A stretch of DNA of 64,000 bases from Terrabacter sp. Ter38 (GTDB lineage: Bacteria > Actinomycetota > Actinomycetes > Actinomycetales > Dermatophilaceae). The notes beneath the pieces are model-generated. The model worked only from the letters and a program-made list of their open reading frames with translations, was not told the origin of the DNA and made no database searches. The translations under genes and the position numbers were made by a program. The stretch is from positions 186,001-250,000 of the forward strand of contig NZ_JALJRZ010000007.1 in assembly GCF_024519435.1 (NCBI RefSeq). Direction: 5' to 3'. Within the stretch, counting starts at the first letter, position 1, and every line of letters starts with the position of its first letter. Below are positions 27,126 through 32,280 of this stretch, piece by piece.

Positions 27126-27641
27126 TCACTCACGCAGCGGCGCCAACAGCCGGTGGGGCTCCCGGAGCCTTGCGGACAGCGGGTTGGTGGGCGGGTCCGC
27201 GCCGGCTCCGGGTCCCGGCCGGGTCTCGAGCTCGGCCGCCGGGGGTGTCGCTCCGCACACGGGGCAGCGCCCGGACACGTCGACGTCGGCGTCGCAAGGC
27301 AGGTGACGGAAGAGCCGCCTCGACCCGCGAGGGGAGGTCGTGGCGTCCCCCCACCGCATGAGCGCGTGGACGGCGGGCCAGAGCGCCTCGCCGGAGGGGG
27401 TGAGGACGTACGCGTCGTGACCGCCCTGCGGCCGGCGCTCGAGGACGCCGGCCTCGACGAGCGACCCGAGCCGTCGGGTCAGGACCGCCTTGGAGATGCC
27501 GAGGCGGCGACGGAAGTCGGTGAACCGGGTGACCCCGAGGAAGGCGTCGCGCACGAGCAGCAGCGACCACCGCTCGCCGACGACCTCGAGAGCCTTGGCG
27601 AGCGAGCAGTCCTGTCCGCTGTAGTCCGTCCCGAGTGCCAT
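27126..27641 (-). CDS. HxlR-family transcriptional regulator
   Basis: MarR-like winged-helix regulator of the HxlR group, 171 residues. The N-terminus has the family Cys in DCSLAKALEVVGERWSLLLV, then LGISKAVLTRRLGSLVEAG (recognition helix) and LTPSGEALWPAVHALMRWGD. A C-terminal extension of about 55 residues contains C-x9-CPVC (DADVDVSGRCPVCGATPP), a possible zinc knuckle seen in a subset of HxlR proteins. The ATG at 27641 lies 6 nt behind TACATT, and a perfect palindrome lies just beyond that. It diverges from the MFS exporter, which I infer to be its main target. Confidence 0.9.
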   Translation of the reverse strand: MALGTDYSGQDCSLAKALEVVGERWSLLLVRDAFLGVTRFTDFRRRLGISKAVLTRRLGSLVEAGVLERRPQGGHDAYVLTPSGEALWPAVHALMRWGDATTSPRGSRRLFRHLPCDADVDVSGRCPVCGATPPAAELETRPGPGAGADPPTNPLSARLREPHRLLAPLRE

Positions 27642-27647
27642 GGAATG

Positions 27648-27678
27648 AATGTACGTCTTGGTCTGTTCAACAGACCAA
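27648..27678. promoter_or_regulatory. HxlR/MFS operator: perfect 21-base palindrome and leaderless -10
   Basis: AATGTA at 27648-27653 reads TACATT on the minus strand, 6 nt before the HxlR ATG. At 27658-27678 the arm TTGGTCTGTT, a single C and the exact complement arm AACAGACCAA make a perfect 21-base palindrome. It sits just upstream of the HxlR -10 and 20 bases before the MFS start, so one bound dimer could shut both genes. Arm length and symmetry are well beyond chance. Confidence 0.75.
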
Positions 27679-27698
27679 TCGGATCCACGGAGGACGTC

Positions 27699-29186
27699 AT
27701 GAGCCGCACCCGGCAGGCAGCACCCCGGACGACGACGCGCGGGACGACCGCGCCCCCGGCCATCGCGCCCCGAGCCGGCGACCAGGCCCGCCGGGCGCTC
27801 GCCGTGGCCGCGGTCGGCACGGCACTGGCCCTCGTCGCCTTCACGGCCCCGCTGGCCACGGTCGGCTCCGTGACCGCGGCGCTCGGATCGGACGTCGCCG
27901 GGCGCACGTGGATCCTCAGCTCGATGGGCATCGGGCTCGGGGCGGCTCTGCTGACGGCAGGCACCCTGGCCGACGACCGCGGTCGTCGTCGCGTCCTCGT
28001 CGGGGGGCTGGTCGTCCTCGCCGCGTCGAGTCTCGCGGCCGCCCTCGCCGGAGGCACGCTCGTGTTCGTCCTTGCCCGGGTCGGGGAGGGCATCGGCGCT
28101 GCGGCGGTCATCGCGGCGAGCCTCGGCCTCGTCGCTCACTGGTTCGAGCCCGGCCCGGCCCGGGCGGCCGCGAGCGGGGTGTGGGGTGCGAGTGTCGGAG
28201 GCGGCATCGCCCTGGGCCCGCTCGTCGCGAGCGCCTTCGACCGCTGGGCGTCGTGGCGCGACACGTACGTCGTCCTCGCCGTGGCGTCGCTCGTGCTGGC
28301 CGCGGTCGCACGACGCGGGCTGGACGAGGTCCGGTCGCACGAACGTCGACCGCTCGACGCGCTCGGCGCGACGCTTCTCGCCGTTGCGACCTCGGGCTTC
28401 CTCGCCGCACTCGTCGAGGGTCGGAGCGGGTGGGGTCGGCCGGAGGTCCTCGTCCTGCTCGGTGTGGGTGCGGTCTCATCTGCCGCGTTCGTGTTCGCCG
28501 AGTGGCGCACGTCCTTCCCGATGGTCGACCCGTCCCTCTTCCGGGACGGCCGGTTCGTCGCCGCGAGTGCGGCTGCGCTCGCGACAGGCGCGGGCGCGAT
28601 CGGCCTGCTCTCCTTCCTCCCCGGCTTCCTCGCCCTGGCGCTCGGTCTGCCCGCGACGACCTCCGCCGTCCTCTTCCTCGCCTGGTCCGGTACGAGCGTC
28701 GTGTTCGCCCTGGTGGCCCGGCGGCTACCGGCGCGGTGGTCCGGCAGAGCGCAGCTGGCGGGTGGGCTCGTCGTCGTCGCAGCAGGTCAGATCGCACTGT
28801 CGGGGATCACGCCCGGGTCCTCCTGGGCCCGGTTCCTGCCCGGCCTGCTCGTCGCGGGTGTGGGCAGCGGTGTCCTCAACGCCGCCCTCGGGCGTGAGGC
28901 CGTCGCGAGCGTGCCGGCGGGCCGGGGCGGGATGGGTAGCGGCGCGAACAACACGGCCCGCTACCTCGGCTCGTCCATCGGGGTCACCGTGGTCGCTGTC
29001 GTCGTCGCGGCGCACGCGGGGTCCGGTTCCGGAGCGGCCGGACTCGTGGCCGGTTGGAACGTCGCCGCTGGGGTGACCGCCGGTATCTCGCTCGTCGGGG
29101 CCGTCGTCGTGTGGGCCACGACGGTGACGGATCGACGACGGGCCGCCGCGGCCGTCAGGTACGCCGTCGGCGACCCGAGCGACTGA
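27699..29186 (+). CDS. MFS transporter (DHA2-like drug exporter)
   Basis: Proton-driven exporter with about 14 hydrophobic segments in 495 residues, as in the DHA2/EmrB-QacA group. After a Thr/Ala/Pro-rich cytoplasmic start, helix 2-3 loop LADDRGRRRVLVGG matches the MFS motif A region, and RVGEGIGAAAVIAASLGLV and GGGIALGPLVASAFDRWASW correspond to motifs B and C of antiporters. The ATG at 27699 has GGAGG at 27689-27693. The adjacent HxlR regulator and palindromic operator suggest induction by a small toxic compound. The substrate cannot be told. Confidence 0.92.
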   Translation: MSRTRQAAPRTTTRGTTAPPAIAPRAGDQARRALAVAAVGTALALVAFTAPLATVGSVTAALGSDVAGRTWILSSMGIGLGAALLTAGTLADDRGRRRVLVGGLVVLAASSLAAALAGGTLVFVLARVGEGIGAAAVIAASLGLVAHWFEPGPARAAASGVWGASVGGGIALGPLVASAFDRWASWRDTYVVLAVASLVLAAVARRGLDEVRSHERRPLDALGATLLAVATSGFLAALVEGRSGWGRPEVLVLLGVGAVSSAAFVFAEWRTSFPMVDPSLFRDGRFVAASAAALATGAGAIGLLSFLPGFLALALGLPATTSAVLFLAWSGTSVVFALVARRLPARWSGRAQLAGGLVVVAAGQIALSGITPGSSWARFLPGLLVAGVGSGVLNAALGREAVASVPAGRGGMGSGANNTARYLGSSIGVTVVAVVVAAHAGSGSGAAGLVAGWNVAAGVTAGISLVGAVVVWATTVTDRRRAAAAVRYAVGDPSD

Positions 29187-29190
29187 CCGC

Positions 29191-29221
29191 TTGACCTTCG
29201 ACCCGGTCGAGGGACCAGTCT
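29191..29221 (+). promoter_or_regulatory. MerR-type promoter/operator of the fusion gene
   Basis: TTGACC (29191-29196) and CAGTCT (29216-29221) are separated by 19 bases, the stretched spacing typical of MerR-controlled promoters. The spacer holds an inverted repeat CCTTCGAC (29195-29202) / GTCGAGGG (29206-29213), 7 of 8 complementary around a 3-base centre. The ATG follows 7 nt after the -10. I infer autoregulation by the encoded MerR domain. Confidence 0.6.
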
Positions 29222-29228
29222 TCTCGTC

Positions 29229-30335
29229 ATGCCCGCCGACCTCGAGCCCGCTGCCGACGACGACCGCCTCCTGACGATCGGTGAGGTCGCTCGTCGGAGC
29301 GGCCTCACCGCGAGCGCCCTGCGCTTCTACGACCGTGAAGGCGTGCTCGTGCCGGCCGATGTCGACGCCCTGACGGGCTATCGGAGGTATGCCGTCGCGC
29401 AGGTCCGCGCTGCCCGTCTCCTCGCGTCGCTGCGCCGGGTCGGCATGCCTCTCGCCGAGGTCGCGCTCGTGCTCGACGAGGACGCGCGCGGGGCGTCCGG
29501 CGCTGCCGCTGACGTCGTCACCGCCCACGAGCAGCGTCTCGTCGACGGTCTGGCGGACGCCCGGAACGAGATCGTGCGCACCCTGGCCCTCCTCGCCGAG
29601 CGCGACCTCGCGGGGGTGCAGGCGTGTCGGGTCGCGGTTCGCGCAGGACACCTCGCAGCGGCGCTGGCCTCGGTGCGGTTCGCCGTGGCGCCGGGGGAGC
29701 CGGTCGCGGGTGCCCCCGACGGAGTGGACCTGCGCGTGCTCACGGGGATCCTCCTCGAGGTGTGCGGCGGCGAGGTGCGGTGCGTCGCGACCGACCGCTA
29801 CCGCCTCGCCGTCGGGTGGGCGCCCGTCGCCGGCCCGCCGGCGGCGTCGCCGGACGAGCCGGTGGCGGCCGTCGTCCCGGTCGGATGGGCCGAGCGCGTC
29901 ACCAAGGCGTGCGCCGCCGTCGGCGCGGACTCCGAGGTCGAGCTCGAGCTACGGCCGGGGAGGGTGGGCGCGCTCGTCGACGGTGCGCTGGTCGCGACCC
30001 CCGTGGTCCCCGGCTCCTTCCCCGACTACCGCAGCATCGTGGCCACCGACCCGGGTCGGGTCGCCGTCGCCGCCGACGGCCTCCAGGCGCGCCTGCCGGT
30101 GGAGGCCCGGACGGTCGGCCTCGTCGTGCGTGACGGCTCGGTCCACGTGTCCGTCGGGGACGACGCAGGTGCCGACGTCCTCGTCGATCCCGAGTTCCTC
30201 CACGAGGCGCTCGCCGTCGCCGGCCCCCGGCCGACGCTCGTGCTCGACGGTGCGCACCGCCCCCTGGCGATCCGCGGTGACGGGGCCGGTTTCTCCGTCC
30301 TCATGCCCGTGGCGAAGGACGGCCCGCGCCCGTGA
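29229..30335 (+). CDS. MerR regulator fused to DNA sliding-clamp (DnaN) domains 2 and 3
   Basis: A 368-residue fusion. Residues ~14-85 are a MerR DNA-binding domain (LLTIGEVARRSGLTASALRF, then YRRYAVAQVRAARLLASLRR) and ~86-130 the helix that dimerises MerR proteins. From ~135 the chain matches DnaN. Domain 2 has DLRVLTGILLEV and ATDRYRLAV (187-195). Domain 3 has GSFPDYRSIVA (262-272), VLVDPEFLHEALAVAG and the C-terminal clamp ending FSVLMPV (355-361). Clamp domain 1 is absent, its place taken by MerR. A ligand-binding use of the clamp fold, or real clamp/replisome interaction, are both open. The stop overlaps the next small gene as GTGA. Confidence 0.85.
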   Translation: MPADLEPAADDDRLLTIGEVARRSGLTASALRFYDREGVLVPADVDALTGYRRYAVAQVRAARLLASLRRVGMPLAEVALVLDEDARGASGAAADVVTAHEQRLVDGLADARNEIVRTLALLAERDLAGVQACRVAVRAGHLAAALASVRFAVAPGEPVAGAPDGVDLRVLTGILLEVCGGEVRCVATDRYRLAVGWAPVAGPPAASPDEPVAAVVPVGWAERVTKACAAVGADSEVELELRPGRVGALVDGALVATPVVPGSFPDYRSIVATDPGRVAVAADGLQARLPVEARTVGLVVRDGSVHVSVGDDAGADVLVDPEFLHEALAVAGPRPTLVLDGAHRPLAIRGDGAGFSVLMPVAKDGPRP

Positions 30336-30652
30336 GCGTGCTCGTCCACCTGTGCCTCGGGTGCGGCCACCAGAGCGCCTGGCACGAGGGCGGCAACGGC
30401 GGCTACACGCCCTGCCGGTGCTGCCGAGCCGGGACGGCTGACCCCGACCCCGCGCCGATGCTGCTGCCGACGTCGACCTCGCCCGGCGGCATACCCGAAC
30501 CTCTGTGGGAGCCGGGCACCCGGCGGAACGTGGGCACGATGCACGCCTCCCGCGTGTGCGGGTGCGTGGCCTGCCACGAGGCCGCCCTGCGGATATCGCG
30601 TCGAGAGCACCCCTTCGCGGCTCCTAGACTGGTGGGGTTGTCCGGCCGCTGA
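30332..30652 (+). CDS. Small Cys-rich protein, function unknown
   Basis: A 106-residue protein coupled by a GTGA overlap to the MerR-clamp fusion. Eight cysteines fall in clusters: C8-x2-C11 followed by H13 and H18, then C28-x-C30-C31, and C76-x-C78-x2-C81-H82. Two zinc-ribbon-like sites are plausible. The middle (33-70) is Pro/Thr-rich and probably flexible. No enzyme motif is recognised. The tight coupling suggests that it acts with the fusion protein or in the same response. Confidence 0.65.
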   Translation: MSVLVHLCLGCGHQSAWHEGGNGGYTPCRCCRAGTADPDPAPMLLPTSTSPGGIPEPLWEPGTRRNVGTMHASRVCGCVACHEAALRISRREHPFAAPRLVGLSGR

Positions 30653-30681: not shown

Positions 30682-32280
30682 GTGATCGTCGCCACCGGGA
30701 TCGAGCTGCGCGCCGGGGCGCGCCTGCTCGTCGAGGACGCCAGCTTCAGGATCGACGCGGGCGACCGCATCGGCCTCGTCGGACGCAACGGTGCCGGCAA
30801 GACGACCCTGACCAAGGTGCTCGCGGGGGAGGGCCAGCCGGCCGCCGGCACGGTGACCCGCACGGGCGCCGTCGGCTACCTGCCGCAGGACCCCCGCACC
30901 GGCGACCTCGAGATGCTCGCCCGCGACCGCATCCTCTCCGCCCGCGGGTTGGACGCCATCGTGCGCCAGCGCTCAGAGGCCGAGGCGCGGATGGGCAGCG
31001 ACGACGAGAAGGTCCGCGACAAGGCGATGCGCGCCTACACCCGGCTCGAGGTGGAGTTCGAGGCCCAGGGCGGGTATGCCGCCGAGTCCGAGGCCGCCTC
31101 GATCGCCAGCGCCCTCAACCTCGAGGAGCGCATCCTCGGCCAACCGCTCGGCACCCTCTCGGGTGGCCAGCGTCGCCGCGTCGAGCTGTCGCGGATCCTC
31201 TTCTCCGGCAACGAGACCCTGCTCCTCGACGAGCCGACCAACCACCTCGACGCCGACTCGATCATCTGGCTGAGGGAGTACCTCCGCGCCTACAAGGGCG
31301 GGCTCATCATCATCAGCCACGACGCCGAGATGCTCGATGCCGTCGTCAACAAGGTCTACCACCTCGACGCGAACCGCTCGGCCCTCGACGTCTACAACGT
31401 CAACTGGAAGACCTACCTCCAGGCGCGCGAGACGGATGAGAAGCGCCGCCGCCGCGAGCTGCAGAACGCCCAGAAGAAGGCCGGTGCGCTCATGGCGCAG
31501 GCCGACAAGATGCGCGCCAAGGCGACCAAGGCGACAGCGGCCCAGAACATGGCCAAGCGCGCCGAGCGACTCCTCGCCGGCGTCGAGGGTGAGCGGGTCC
31601 AGGACAAGGTGGCCAAGCTCCGCTTCCCCAAGCCGGCCGCCTGCGGCAAGACGCCCCTGCGCGCGTCCGGGCTCTCCCGCTCGTACGGCTCGCTCGAGGT
31701 CTTCACCGACGTCGACCTCGCCATCGACCGCGGGAGCAAGGTCGTGGTGCTCGGTCTCAACGGTGCTGGCAAGACGACGCTGCTGCGCATGCTCGCCGGC
31801 GTCGACACCCCCGACACCGGCGAGGTCGAGCCCGGTCACGGGCTGCGGCTCGGCTACTACGCCCAGGAGCACGAGAACCTCGACGTCGGTCGCACGGTCC
31901 TCGAGAACATGAAGTCGGCCGCGCCGGAGCTCGGCGAGACCGAGGTGCGCAAGGTGCTGGGCTCCTTCCTCTTCTCCGGCGACGACGTCCACAAGCCCGC
32001 GGGCGTGCTGTCGGGCGGCGAGAAGACACGTCTGTCGCTCGCACTCCTCGTCGTCTCGGCGGCCAACGTGCTGCTCCTCGACGAGCCGACGAACAACCTC
32101 GACCCGGCCTCGCGGGCCGAGATCCTCGGGGCCCTGTCGACCTTCGAGGGTGCCGTCGTGCTCGTGACCCACGACGAAGGGGCCGTCGAGGCGCTCGAGC
32201 CCGAGCGCATCCTGCTGCTGCCCGACGGCGTCGAGGACCTCTGGGGACCGGACTACCTCGACCTCATCTCGCTCGCCTGA
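30682..32280 (+). CDS. ABC-F family ATPase
   Basis: Soluble protein with two ABC ATPase domains and no membrane part (532 residues), of the ABC-F class that acts on ribosomes. Domain 1 has GLVGRNGAGKTTLTKVL (about 32-48), LSGGQRRRVELSRIL and LLLDEPTNHLDADSI. The linker 250-320 is long, Lys/Arg-rich and helical (KRRRRELQNAQKKAGAL), the P-site tRNA interaction motif region. Domain 2 has VLGLNGAGKTTLLRML (about 355-370), LSGGEKTRLSLALL and LLLDEPTNNLDPAS. The GTG at 30682 has a strong AGGAGGA at 30670-30676. It is more likely a translation factor or general resistance ABC-F than a transporter. Confidence 0.93.
   Translation: MIVATGIELRAGARLLVEDASFRIDAGDRIGLVGRNGAGKTTLTKVLAGEGQPAAGTVTRTGAVGYLPQDPRTGDLEMLARDRILSARGLDAIVRQRSEAEARMGSDDEKVRDKAMRAYTRLEVEFEAQGGYAAESEAASIASALNLEERILGQPLGTLSGGQRRRVELSRILFSGNETLLLDEPTNHLDADSIIWLREYLRAYKGGLIIISHDAEMLDAVVNKVYHLDANRSALDVYNVNWKTYLQARETDEKRRRRELQNAQKKAGALMAQADKMRAKATKATAAQNMAKRAERLLAGVEGERVQDKVAKLRFPKPAACGKTPLRASGLSRSYGSLEVFTDVDLAIDRGSKVVVLGLNGAGKTTLLRMLAGVDTPDTGEVEPGHGLRLGYYAQEHENLDVGRTVLENMKSAAPELGETEVRKVLGSFLFSGDDVHKPAGVLSGGEKTRLSLALLVVSAANVLLLDEPTNNLDPASRAEILGALSTFEGAVVLVTHDEGAVEALEPERILLLPDGVEDLWGPDYLDLISLA

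Follow-up and report, generated by a model that had tools for sequence, protein, structure and literature searches.

A MerR regulator fused to domains 2 and 3 of the sliding clamp in Actinomycetes, a candidate sensor of clamp-pocket occupancy

Introduction

Polymerases dock at the sliding clamp (DnaN, or beta clamp) in a pocket between its domains 2 and 3. MerR activators of the BmrR/Mta type, which the protein described here resembles, combine a promoter with a 19-bp spacer and a drug-binding domain. Griselimycin binds the hydrophobic pocket between clamp domains II and III, and mycobacterial resistance to it involves amplification of dnaN together with the ori region; both statements come from PMC5694481, which also describes the clamp-blocking protein SocB. 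In PMC10817943, second DnaN genes (griR and mypR), which code for full-length clamps, are reported from the biosynthetic clusters of griselimycin and mycoplanecin producers. TipA is presented in PMC7762955 as sensor, activator, and neutralizer in a single gene, with two start codons from which TipAL and TipAS are made.

We describe here a regulator that would work like TipA but stands outside the TipA class and that is built from DnaN but is no clamp. As in the TipA class (TipAL/TipAS, AlbA, and SkgA), a MerR helix-turn-helix (HTH) is followed by a C-terminal ligand domain, with a promoter predicted to be autoregulated, and 58 of 81 relatives have a putative start with a Shine-Dalgarno sequence that would yield the ligand domain alone, comparable to TipAS. 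Unlike in that class, the predicted sensor is a sliding-clamp fold with no match to the TipAS domain, the operator of the relatives is also found at dnaN and at genes of the major facilitator superfamily (MFS), and the copy analyzed here has no internal start. As in DnaN, domains 2 and 3 lie end to end and the pocket residues are kept, whereas MerR stands in place of domain 1 and the strand with I305 is deleted in all 81 fusions. The clamp fold is also what distinguishes it from BmrR/Mta, which have a GyrI-like domain. GriR and MypR share with it the provision of an additional copy of the drug-binding clamp surface, and Virgisporangium ochraceum even has a second full-length DnaN under the operator of the fusion; GriR and MypR are, however, clamps in biosynthetic clusters, while the fusion is a regulator. 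No prior description of a MerR-clamp fusion or of a clamp-fold sensor was found among the open-access papers that were searched.

Results

Domain architecture of the fusion

The fusion (368 amino acids) is encoded on the forward strand at positions 29229 to 30335 of the window, that is, the whole stretch of 64,000 nucleotides from Terrabacter sp. Ter38 that was analyzed. Judged by sequence, its N-terminal half is MerR: residues 14 to 127 (29268 to 29609, forward strand) comprise a winged HTH and a long helix (residues 90 to 127), a candidate dimerization helix predicted in a confident model, and MerR_1 (PF13411) matched residues 16 to 84 with an E value of 2e-14 (53.9 bits against a cutoff of 21.6). 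The clamp part, residues 132 to 363 (29622 to 30317, forward strand), corresponds to beta-clamp domains 2 and 3 and contains the pocket motifs ATDRYRLA, FPDYR, and LMPV. Here, the Pfam model of the clamp central domain (DNA_pol3_beta_2) matched residues 168 to 266 (E value of 2.6e-10), the NCBIfam dnaN profile residues 168 to 275 (3.9e-9), and mycobacterial clamps aligned with residues 151 to 344 at ca. 4e-8 (phmmer). The Pfam search up to an E value of 1 listed MerR_1, MerR, and DNA_pol3_beta_2, with no match to the TipAS effector domain. Among proteins of solved structure, the relatives of the first half were MerR regulators, and those of the second half were mycobacterial and other clamps. 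A family profile made from 15 fusions matched the canonical DnaN proteins of the phylum through its clamp half, over positions ca. 126 to 350 and with E values down to 1e-43, and therefore domains 2 and 3 are both present; the similarity extends well beyond a single short motif.

An AlphaFold2 model with a 49-sequence alignment as input (mean pLDDT of 88.8 and pTM of 0.72) gave the same picture. Its residues 132 to 363 aligned with residues 125 to 366 of E. coli beta (VIA-align Z of 22.9 and rmsd of 2.2 over 213 residues), and the top 50 Foldseek rows were clamps or clamp complexes. In the structural alignment, clamp domain 1 was absent, leaving the fusion with two of the three domains that define DnaN. 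An earlier note, made from the letters of this DNA, had read the open reading frame (ORF) as a MerR regulator that replaces domain 1 ahead of DnaN domains 2 and 3, with limits at about residues 14 to 130 and 135 to 362, and had proposed structure prediction against DnaN as a check. Profiles and model bear this out, with the limits placed at 14 to 127 and 132 to 363. The net charge of the clamp half (family median of −12 and −8 in the window, compared to −6 for domains 2 and 3 of E. coli and −12 for those of the DnaN of the window's genome) was dropped as a test of DNA sliding on the inner surface, as the values were uninformative.

Promoter and operator of the fusion gene

Directly upstream, at 29191 to 29221 on the forward strand, we found a MerR-type promoter/operator, made up of TTGACC (29191 to 29196), the arms TCGACC and GGTCGA around a single C, and CAGTCT (29216 to 29221), with a spacer of 19 bp. 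The start codon (ATG, 29229) is located 8 nt past the promoter, and the transcript is therefore probably leaderless. A dyad within a promoter with a long spacer (19 to 20 bp), as is characteristic of MerR regulators, was found in the window (19 bp) and in 79 of the 81 loci, always directly upstream from the fusion, the exceptions being two Rhodococcus loci; the operator that the earlier note had assigned to the gene is thus a conserved feature. Scanning of the window's genome allowing up to two mismatches gave five sites, with the fusion promoter as the sole exact one and the other four carrying two mismatches, while the reversed pattern used as control gave none. From the position of the operator, the promoter looks autoregulated.

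The pocket is retained and the ring interface is lost

To evaluate conservation, the DnaN proteins of E. coli and of the window's genome were aligned with 81 fusions, and we examined 20 positions that we take, from the clamp literature, to form the pocket for partners and griselimycin. Their mean entropy among the 81 fusions was 0.77, compared to 1.71 for all 227 clamp columns, and a mean this low did not occur in 100,000 random draws of 20 columns. The pocket, whose domain 3 residues the earlier note had suggested looking for, is thus better conserved than any other part of the clamp half. T172, R176, M362, and P363 (E. coli numbering here and below) were retained in 80 or 81 of the 81 sequences. 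In the window, the pocket core is canonical (L155, T172, R176, L177, P242, M362, and P363) and its edge departs from the consensus (S246, D320, H344, A365, and K366).

The stretch equivalent to E. coli 296 to 311, which includes I305 and presumably pairs with domain 1 of the neighboring subunit in the clamp ring, is mostly deleted in the fusions, with the I305-to-D307 columns gapped in all 81; I272/L273, which we likewise take to be interface residues, are not conserved. The title of structure 3PWE, an R103C/I305C clamp, agrees with I305 as a residue of the ring interface. A protein of this predicted makeup cannot form the known clamp ring as such. Among the functions that the earlier note had considered, DNA sensing by encirclement is disfavored, because the fusion has neither domain 1 nor the interface strand. 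Reading of a ligand or peptide through the retained pocket is favored, because conservation is highest there, in contrast to the lost ring interface.

An internal start at the domain junction

The 58 junction starts mentioned above are in frame (53 ATG and 5 GTG, one of the latter counted but doubtful) and preceded by a Shine-Dalgarno duplex of −6 kcal/mol or lower; 48 of the 81 fusions reach −8 kcal/mol. All 53 junction ATGs attained the −6 threshold, compared to 10 of the 279 in-frame ATGs elsewhere in the same genes (1 of 279 at −8); with ATG and GTG taken together, 184 of 1,591 control starts reached −6 and 56 of 1,591 reached −8, the junction being scored by its best start and the control by every start. 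Depending on the lineage, the Shine-Dalgarno sequence appears as GGAGGAG (encoding Pro-Glu-Glu) or AGGGAG (Arg-Glu), and therefore the DNA motif is kept while the residues change. The junction start is missing from 23 fusions, the window's own among them; groups that lack it are the clade of the window, Ornithinimicrobium, a Micromonospora subclade, and Rhodococcus.

Distribution and phylogeny

When 394 genomes of the class were sampled, 32 of them, belonging to 15 of 138 genera, had a profile match at an E value of ≤1e-45, a few of these matches covering part of the profile only. The related loci used for comparison correspond to the 80 best among 433 candidates that were confirmed in a scan of named genomes, a sample that leans toward the query, and include Terrabacter, Terracoccus, Humibacillus, Intrasporangium, Ornithinimicrobium, Metallococcus, Micromonospora, Actinoplanes, Asanoa, Virgisporangium, Streptomyces, Kitasatospora, Pseudonocardia, Rhodococcus, and others. 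The fusion is thus a family of Actinomycetes. In Micromonospora, 127 of 131 genomes had a match at 1e-60; this set was taken as Micromonospora on the agreement of its fusions and dnaN places with named Micromonospora loci, and six of the 127 matches end at profile positions 206 to 250, three of these being from a divergent subfamily. No plasmid-borne copies were found at an E value of 1e-20 in a plasmid collection. Split MerR/clamp gene pairs were considered and none was established, the single TGA codons near match ends being terminal stops.

In the tree, the window protein fell within a clade of seven Terrabacter and Humibacillus sequences (support of 100/99), and 13 divergent fusions stood on one side of a branch supported at 100/100. 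The 15 members of the divergent subfamily that were read have a MerR-type promoter upstream with another core sequence, and most of them miss the junction start. Sixteen divergent loci, from Streptomyces-like and other genomes, have a core of their own, of the TTGACCTTC-AGTTGGTTGAAG type. Three further loci encode close MerR proteins with a different C-terminal half, presumably resembling a PP2C-type phosphatase by its motifs, and may be a second sensor/output fusion; two of the three have a Met exactly at the junction.

The operator upstream from dnaN

A matrix derived from 79 operators was run across ca. 1.3 kb upstream from the canonical dnaN of 50 fusion genomes; among 252,738 background positions, all scores above −1.2 were the operator or its reverse complement. 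In named Micromonospora genomes with a main-clade fusion, 24 of 26 had an operator ca. 690 to 710 bp upstream from dnaN (scores of 22.6 to 42.6), and none was found there in the 24 fusion genomes from outside Micromonospora or in the window's genome. In two regions that were read, the site comes directly after the dnaA stop codon, and in Micromonospora it is followed by a stretch rich in DnaA-box-like sequences. Because the promoter is ca. 0.7 kb from dnaN, across an oriC-like region, it may act on the origin instead of dnaN.

The site was found in 7 of 8 further Micromonospora genomes with the fusion, and in G1222, and it was absent from three genomes with no fusion match (G1204, G1245, and G1275) and three with the divergent subfamily only (G1276, G1223, and G1177); G1213, a fragmented assembly with no fusion match detected, has it. 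Overall, 32 of 35 Micromonospora genomes with a main-clade fusion had the site versus 1 of 7 without (Fisher P value of 1e-4, ignoring kinship). Five of the further fusion-positive sites and one of the named set read TGGAC or TCGAC instead of TTGAC.

The second full-length DnaN of V. ochraceum, 45% identical to Micromonospora DnaN, has an operator ca. 48 bp upstream (score of 33.9) and stands alone, with no evident biosynthetic cluster around it. None of the five other second full-length DnaN genes (four Micromonospora and one Pseudonocardia) had an operator, and a general rule for spare clamps was discarded, with one of six carrying it. In the four Micromonospora genomes, the second DnaN (61 to 78% identical) is preceded by small mobile-element-like genes. 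The genome of the window has a single canonical DnaN match besides the fusion.

Other genes behind the operator

A pattern scan detected at least one operator site at ≤1 mismatch in 58 of 61 Micromonospora genomes. The three others are G1204, which lacks a fusion, G1177, whose only fusion is of the divergent subfamily, and G1178, in which the fusion is present. Among 20 third sites hand-picked for reading, six preceded MFS transporters (two types, three each), six YunG-like genes (some of these copies are frameshifted), and eight a family of 158 to 168 amino acids or fragments of it. In all, seven MFS sites of the two types were read, the first type being found at one additional locus, and one protein of each type matched MFS_1 in Pfam. 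Coordinates placed sites 41 to 54 kb from dnaN in 12 of the 61 genomes, three of which were read. One YunG-like protein matched YunG (PF24585; E value of 2e-40), and a member of the small-protein family had no Pfam match. Actinoplanes and Asanoa share with Micromonospora the YunG-like and small-protein genes behind the operator. YunG-like genes were seen directly behind it at nine loci of these three genera, and the small-protein family at 11 loci, most of which have the start codon ca. 38 nt away from the −35 box. Two Actinoplanes sites had no convincing target, and several Streptomyces and Kitasatospora genomes have one or two operator sites only.

Neighborhood in the window

The fusion is followed by a cysteine-rich ORF of 106 amino acids (30332 to 30652, forward strand), whose GTG overlaps the fusion's TGA (GTGA) and whose product is predicted to be a translationally coupled accessory protein. 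It had no Pfam or NCBIfam match and may, given its cysteine pattern, bind metal. The overlap confirms the coupling that the earlier note had described. Its broader idea, a unit of operator, fusion, and cysteine-rich protein, stands in part: the fusion is a family across Actinomycetes, but the partner, with the same overlap, is present in 10 of the 80 related loci, from Intrasporangiaceae, Ornithinimicrobium-like, and Metallococcus genomes, and is lacking in Humibacillus.

An ABC-F type ATPase gene (30682 to 32280) follows downstream of the cysteine-rich ORF within 33 bp, and its position is conserved by synteny among loci of Terrabacter, Humibacillus, and Intrasporangium. Upstream from the fusion there is an MFS transporter gene (27720 to 29186) with a divergent regulator ORF that we take to be HxlR-like (27126 to 29186 together), a pair that adjoins the fusion in some close relatives only. 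This MFS gene was rejected as part of the system, having its own divergent regulator-like ORF and no operator of the fusion's type. The surroundings of the fusion gene in the window showed no biosynthetic cluster. The survey of genome neighborhoods proposed in the earlier note yielded no partner conserved across genera in the 71 loci where the fusion was called (the gene caller missed it in 10 of 81); conserved partners were rejected as a clue, as we saw genus-level synteny only, e.g., serS downstream in Micromonospora.

Discussion

We propose a sensor of pocket occupancy because the fusion joins a clamp pocket to its own promoter and, in most relatives, to signals for a second product and, in Micromonospora, its operator stands upstream from dnaN. 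The reading we prefer, to which we would give an even chance, is that of a self-amplifying activator that senses whether the clamp pocket is occupied, probably by clamp-directed natural products, and that increases both clamp dosage and export. The clamp half is predicted to have lost the ability to form a DNA-encircling ring, but its domains 2 and 3 still have the hydrophobic pocket between them. Once this pocket is filled, most likely by such a natural product, the MerR dimer would twist the 19-bp-spaced promoter and switch on the fusion itself, multiplying the decoy pocket. In most relatives, the internal start would yield the clamp half as a separate product, in the way that TipAS arises from TipA, and this fragment could sequester the ligand. 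Canonical dnaN would be switched on in Micromonospora from the promoter just after dnaA, the spare full-length clamp in one Virgisporangium, and so would MFS transporters, which would export the ligand; the cell would end up with additional target, a sponge, and export. In the genome of the window, the circuit seems to have shrunk to the fusion plus the coupled cysteine-rich protein. The restriction of the dnaN operator to Micromonospora, its absence from 3 of 35 main-clade genomes there, and its presence in G1213 count against this reading, as do the variant sites with TGGAC or TCGAC, the distance of the promoter from dnaN, the single operator among six second DnaN genes, the 23 fusions with no junction start, and the edge of the window's pocket. 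The reading also does not account for the operator at YunG-like genes and at the 158-to-168-amino-acid family, nor for the two Actinoplanes sites with no convincing target.

A bolder version, to which we lean slightly less than we doubt it, holds that the clamp's own pocket senses clamp-directed antibiotics and that the answer is clamp dosage, through the MerR promoter between dnaA and dnaN, together with a self-amplifying decoy. If true, a drug target would have become the sensor that governs how much of this target is made, and inducible transcription would enter the oriC region.

The strongest alternative is an endogenous sensor, whose pocket would read free clamp-binding proteins (e.g., polymerases or repair factors unloaded under replication stress) and fit dnaN expression to demand with no antibiotic involved. 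Host partners do dock in this pocket, Micromonospora has the operator at dnaN itself, and a fusion present in nearly all genomes of that genus looks more like housekeeping than like a resistance cassette. The MFS transporters under the same operator do not fit, however, an internal start releasing a sponge fragment would blunt such sensing, and the few Micromonospora genomes without the dnaN site are hard to reconcile with it. On balance, we consider it unlikely.

We find it more improbable still that the clamp fold now serves as a general binding domain for small molecules or multiple drugs, comparable to the GyrI-like domain in BmrR, with ligands that have nothing to do with the clamp. Exporters, YunG-like genes, and a small-protein family share the operator, as would suit a general drug sensor, and dnaN is no visible target in most genera. 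However, what has been conserved is the exact pocket for clamp partners rather than a new cavity, and a sensor of this kind would not be expected to have its operator at dnaN and also next to a spare clamp gene.

Very little weight goes to the view that the link to dnaN is an accident of lineage and that the fusion is a relic regulating itself and nothing else of importance. It could draw on the own operator as the sole exact site in the window's genome and on the one or two sites in several Streptomyces and Kitasatospora genomes, but pocket and operator are strongly conserved over several families, and the co-occurrence of fusion and dnaN site argues against it. Least probable of all is an anti-phage or anti-toxin alarm in which a decoy clamp detects clamp-blocking phage or toxin proteins such as Gp168 and SocB: these do bind clamps (a Gp168-clamp complex, 7evp, was among the structural matches, and SocB is described in PMC5694481), but no defense genes were noticed among recurrent neighbors in the 71 loci, and exporters under the operator suggest small molecules.

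So far, sliding clamps have been familiar as components of the replication machinery and as targets of drugs. If our preferred reading of pocket occupancy is right, the fusion would be a ready-made biosensor for clamp inhibitors, an inducible route of tolerance to griselimycin-type drugs would be predicted in many soil actinobacteria, and transcription of dnaN and of the origin region would be tied to a ligand. What these bacteria sense through the clamp pocket could be tested directly with one purified protein and one promoter.
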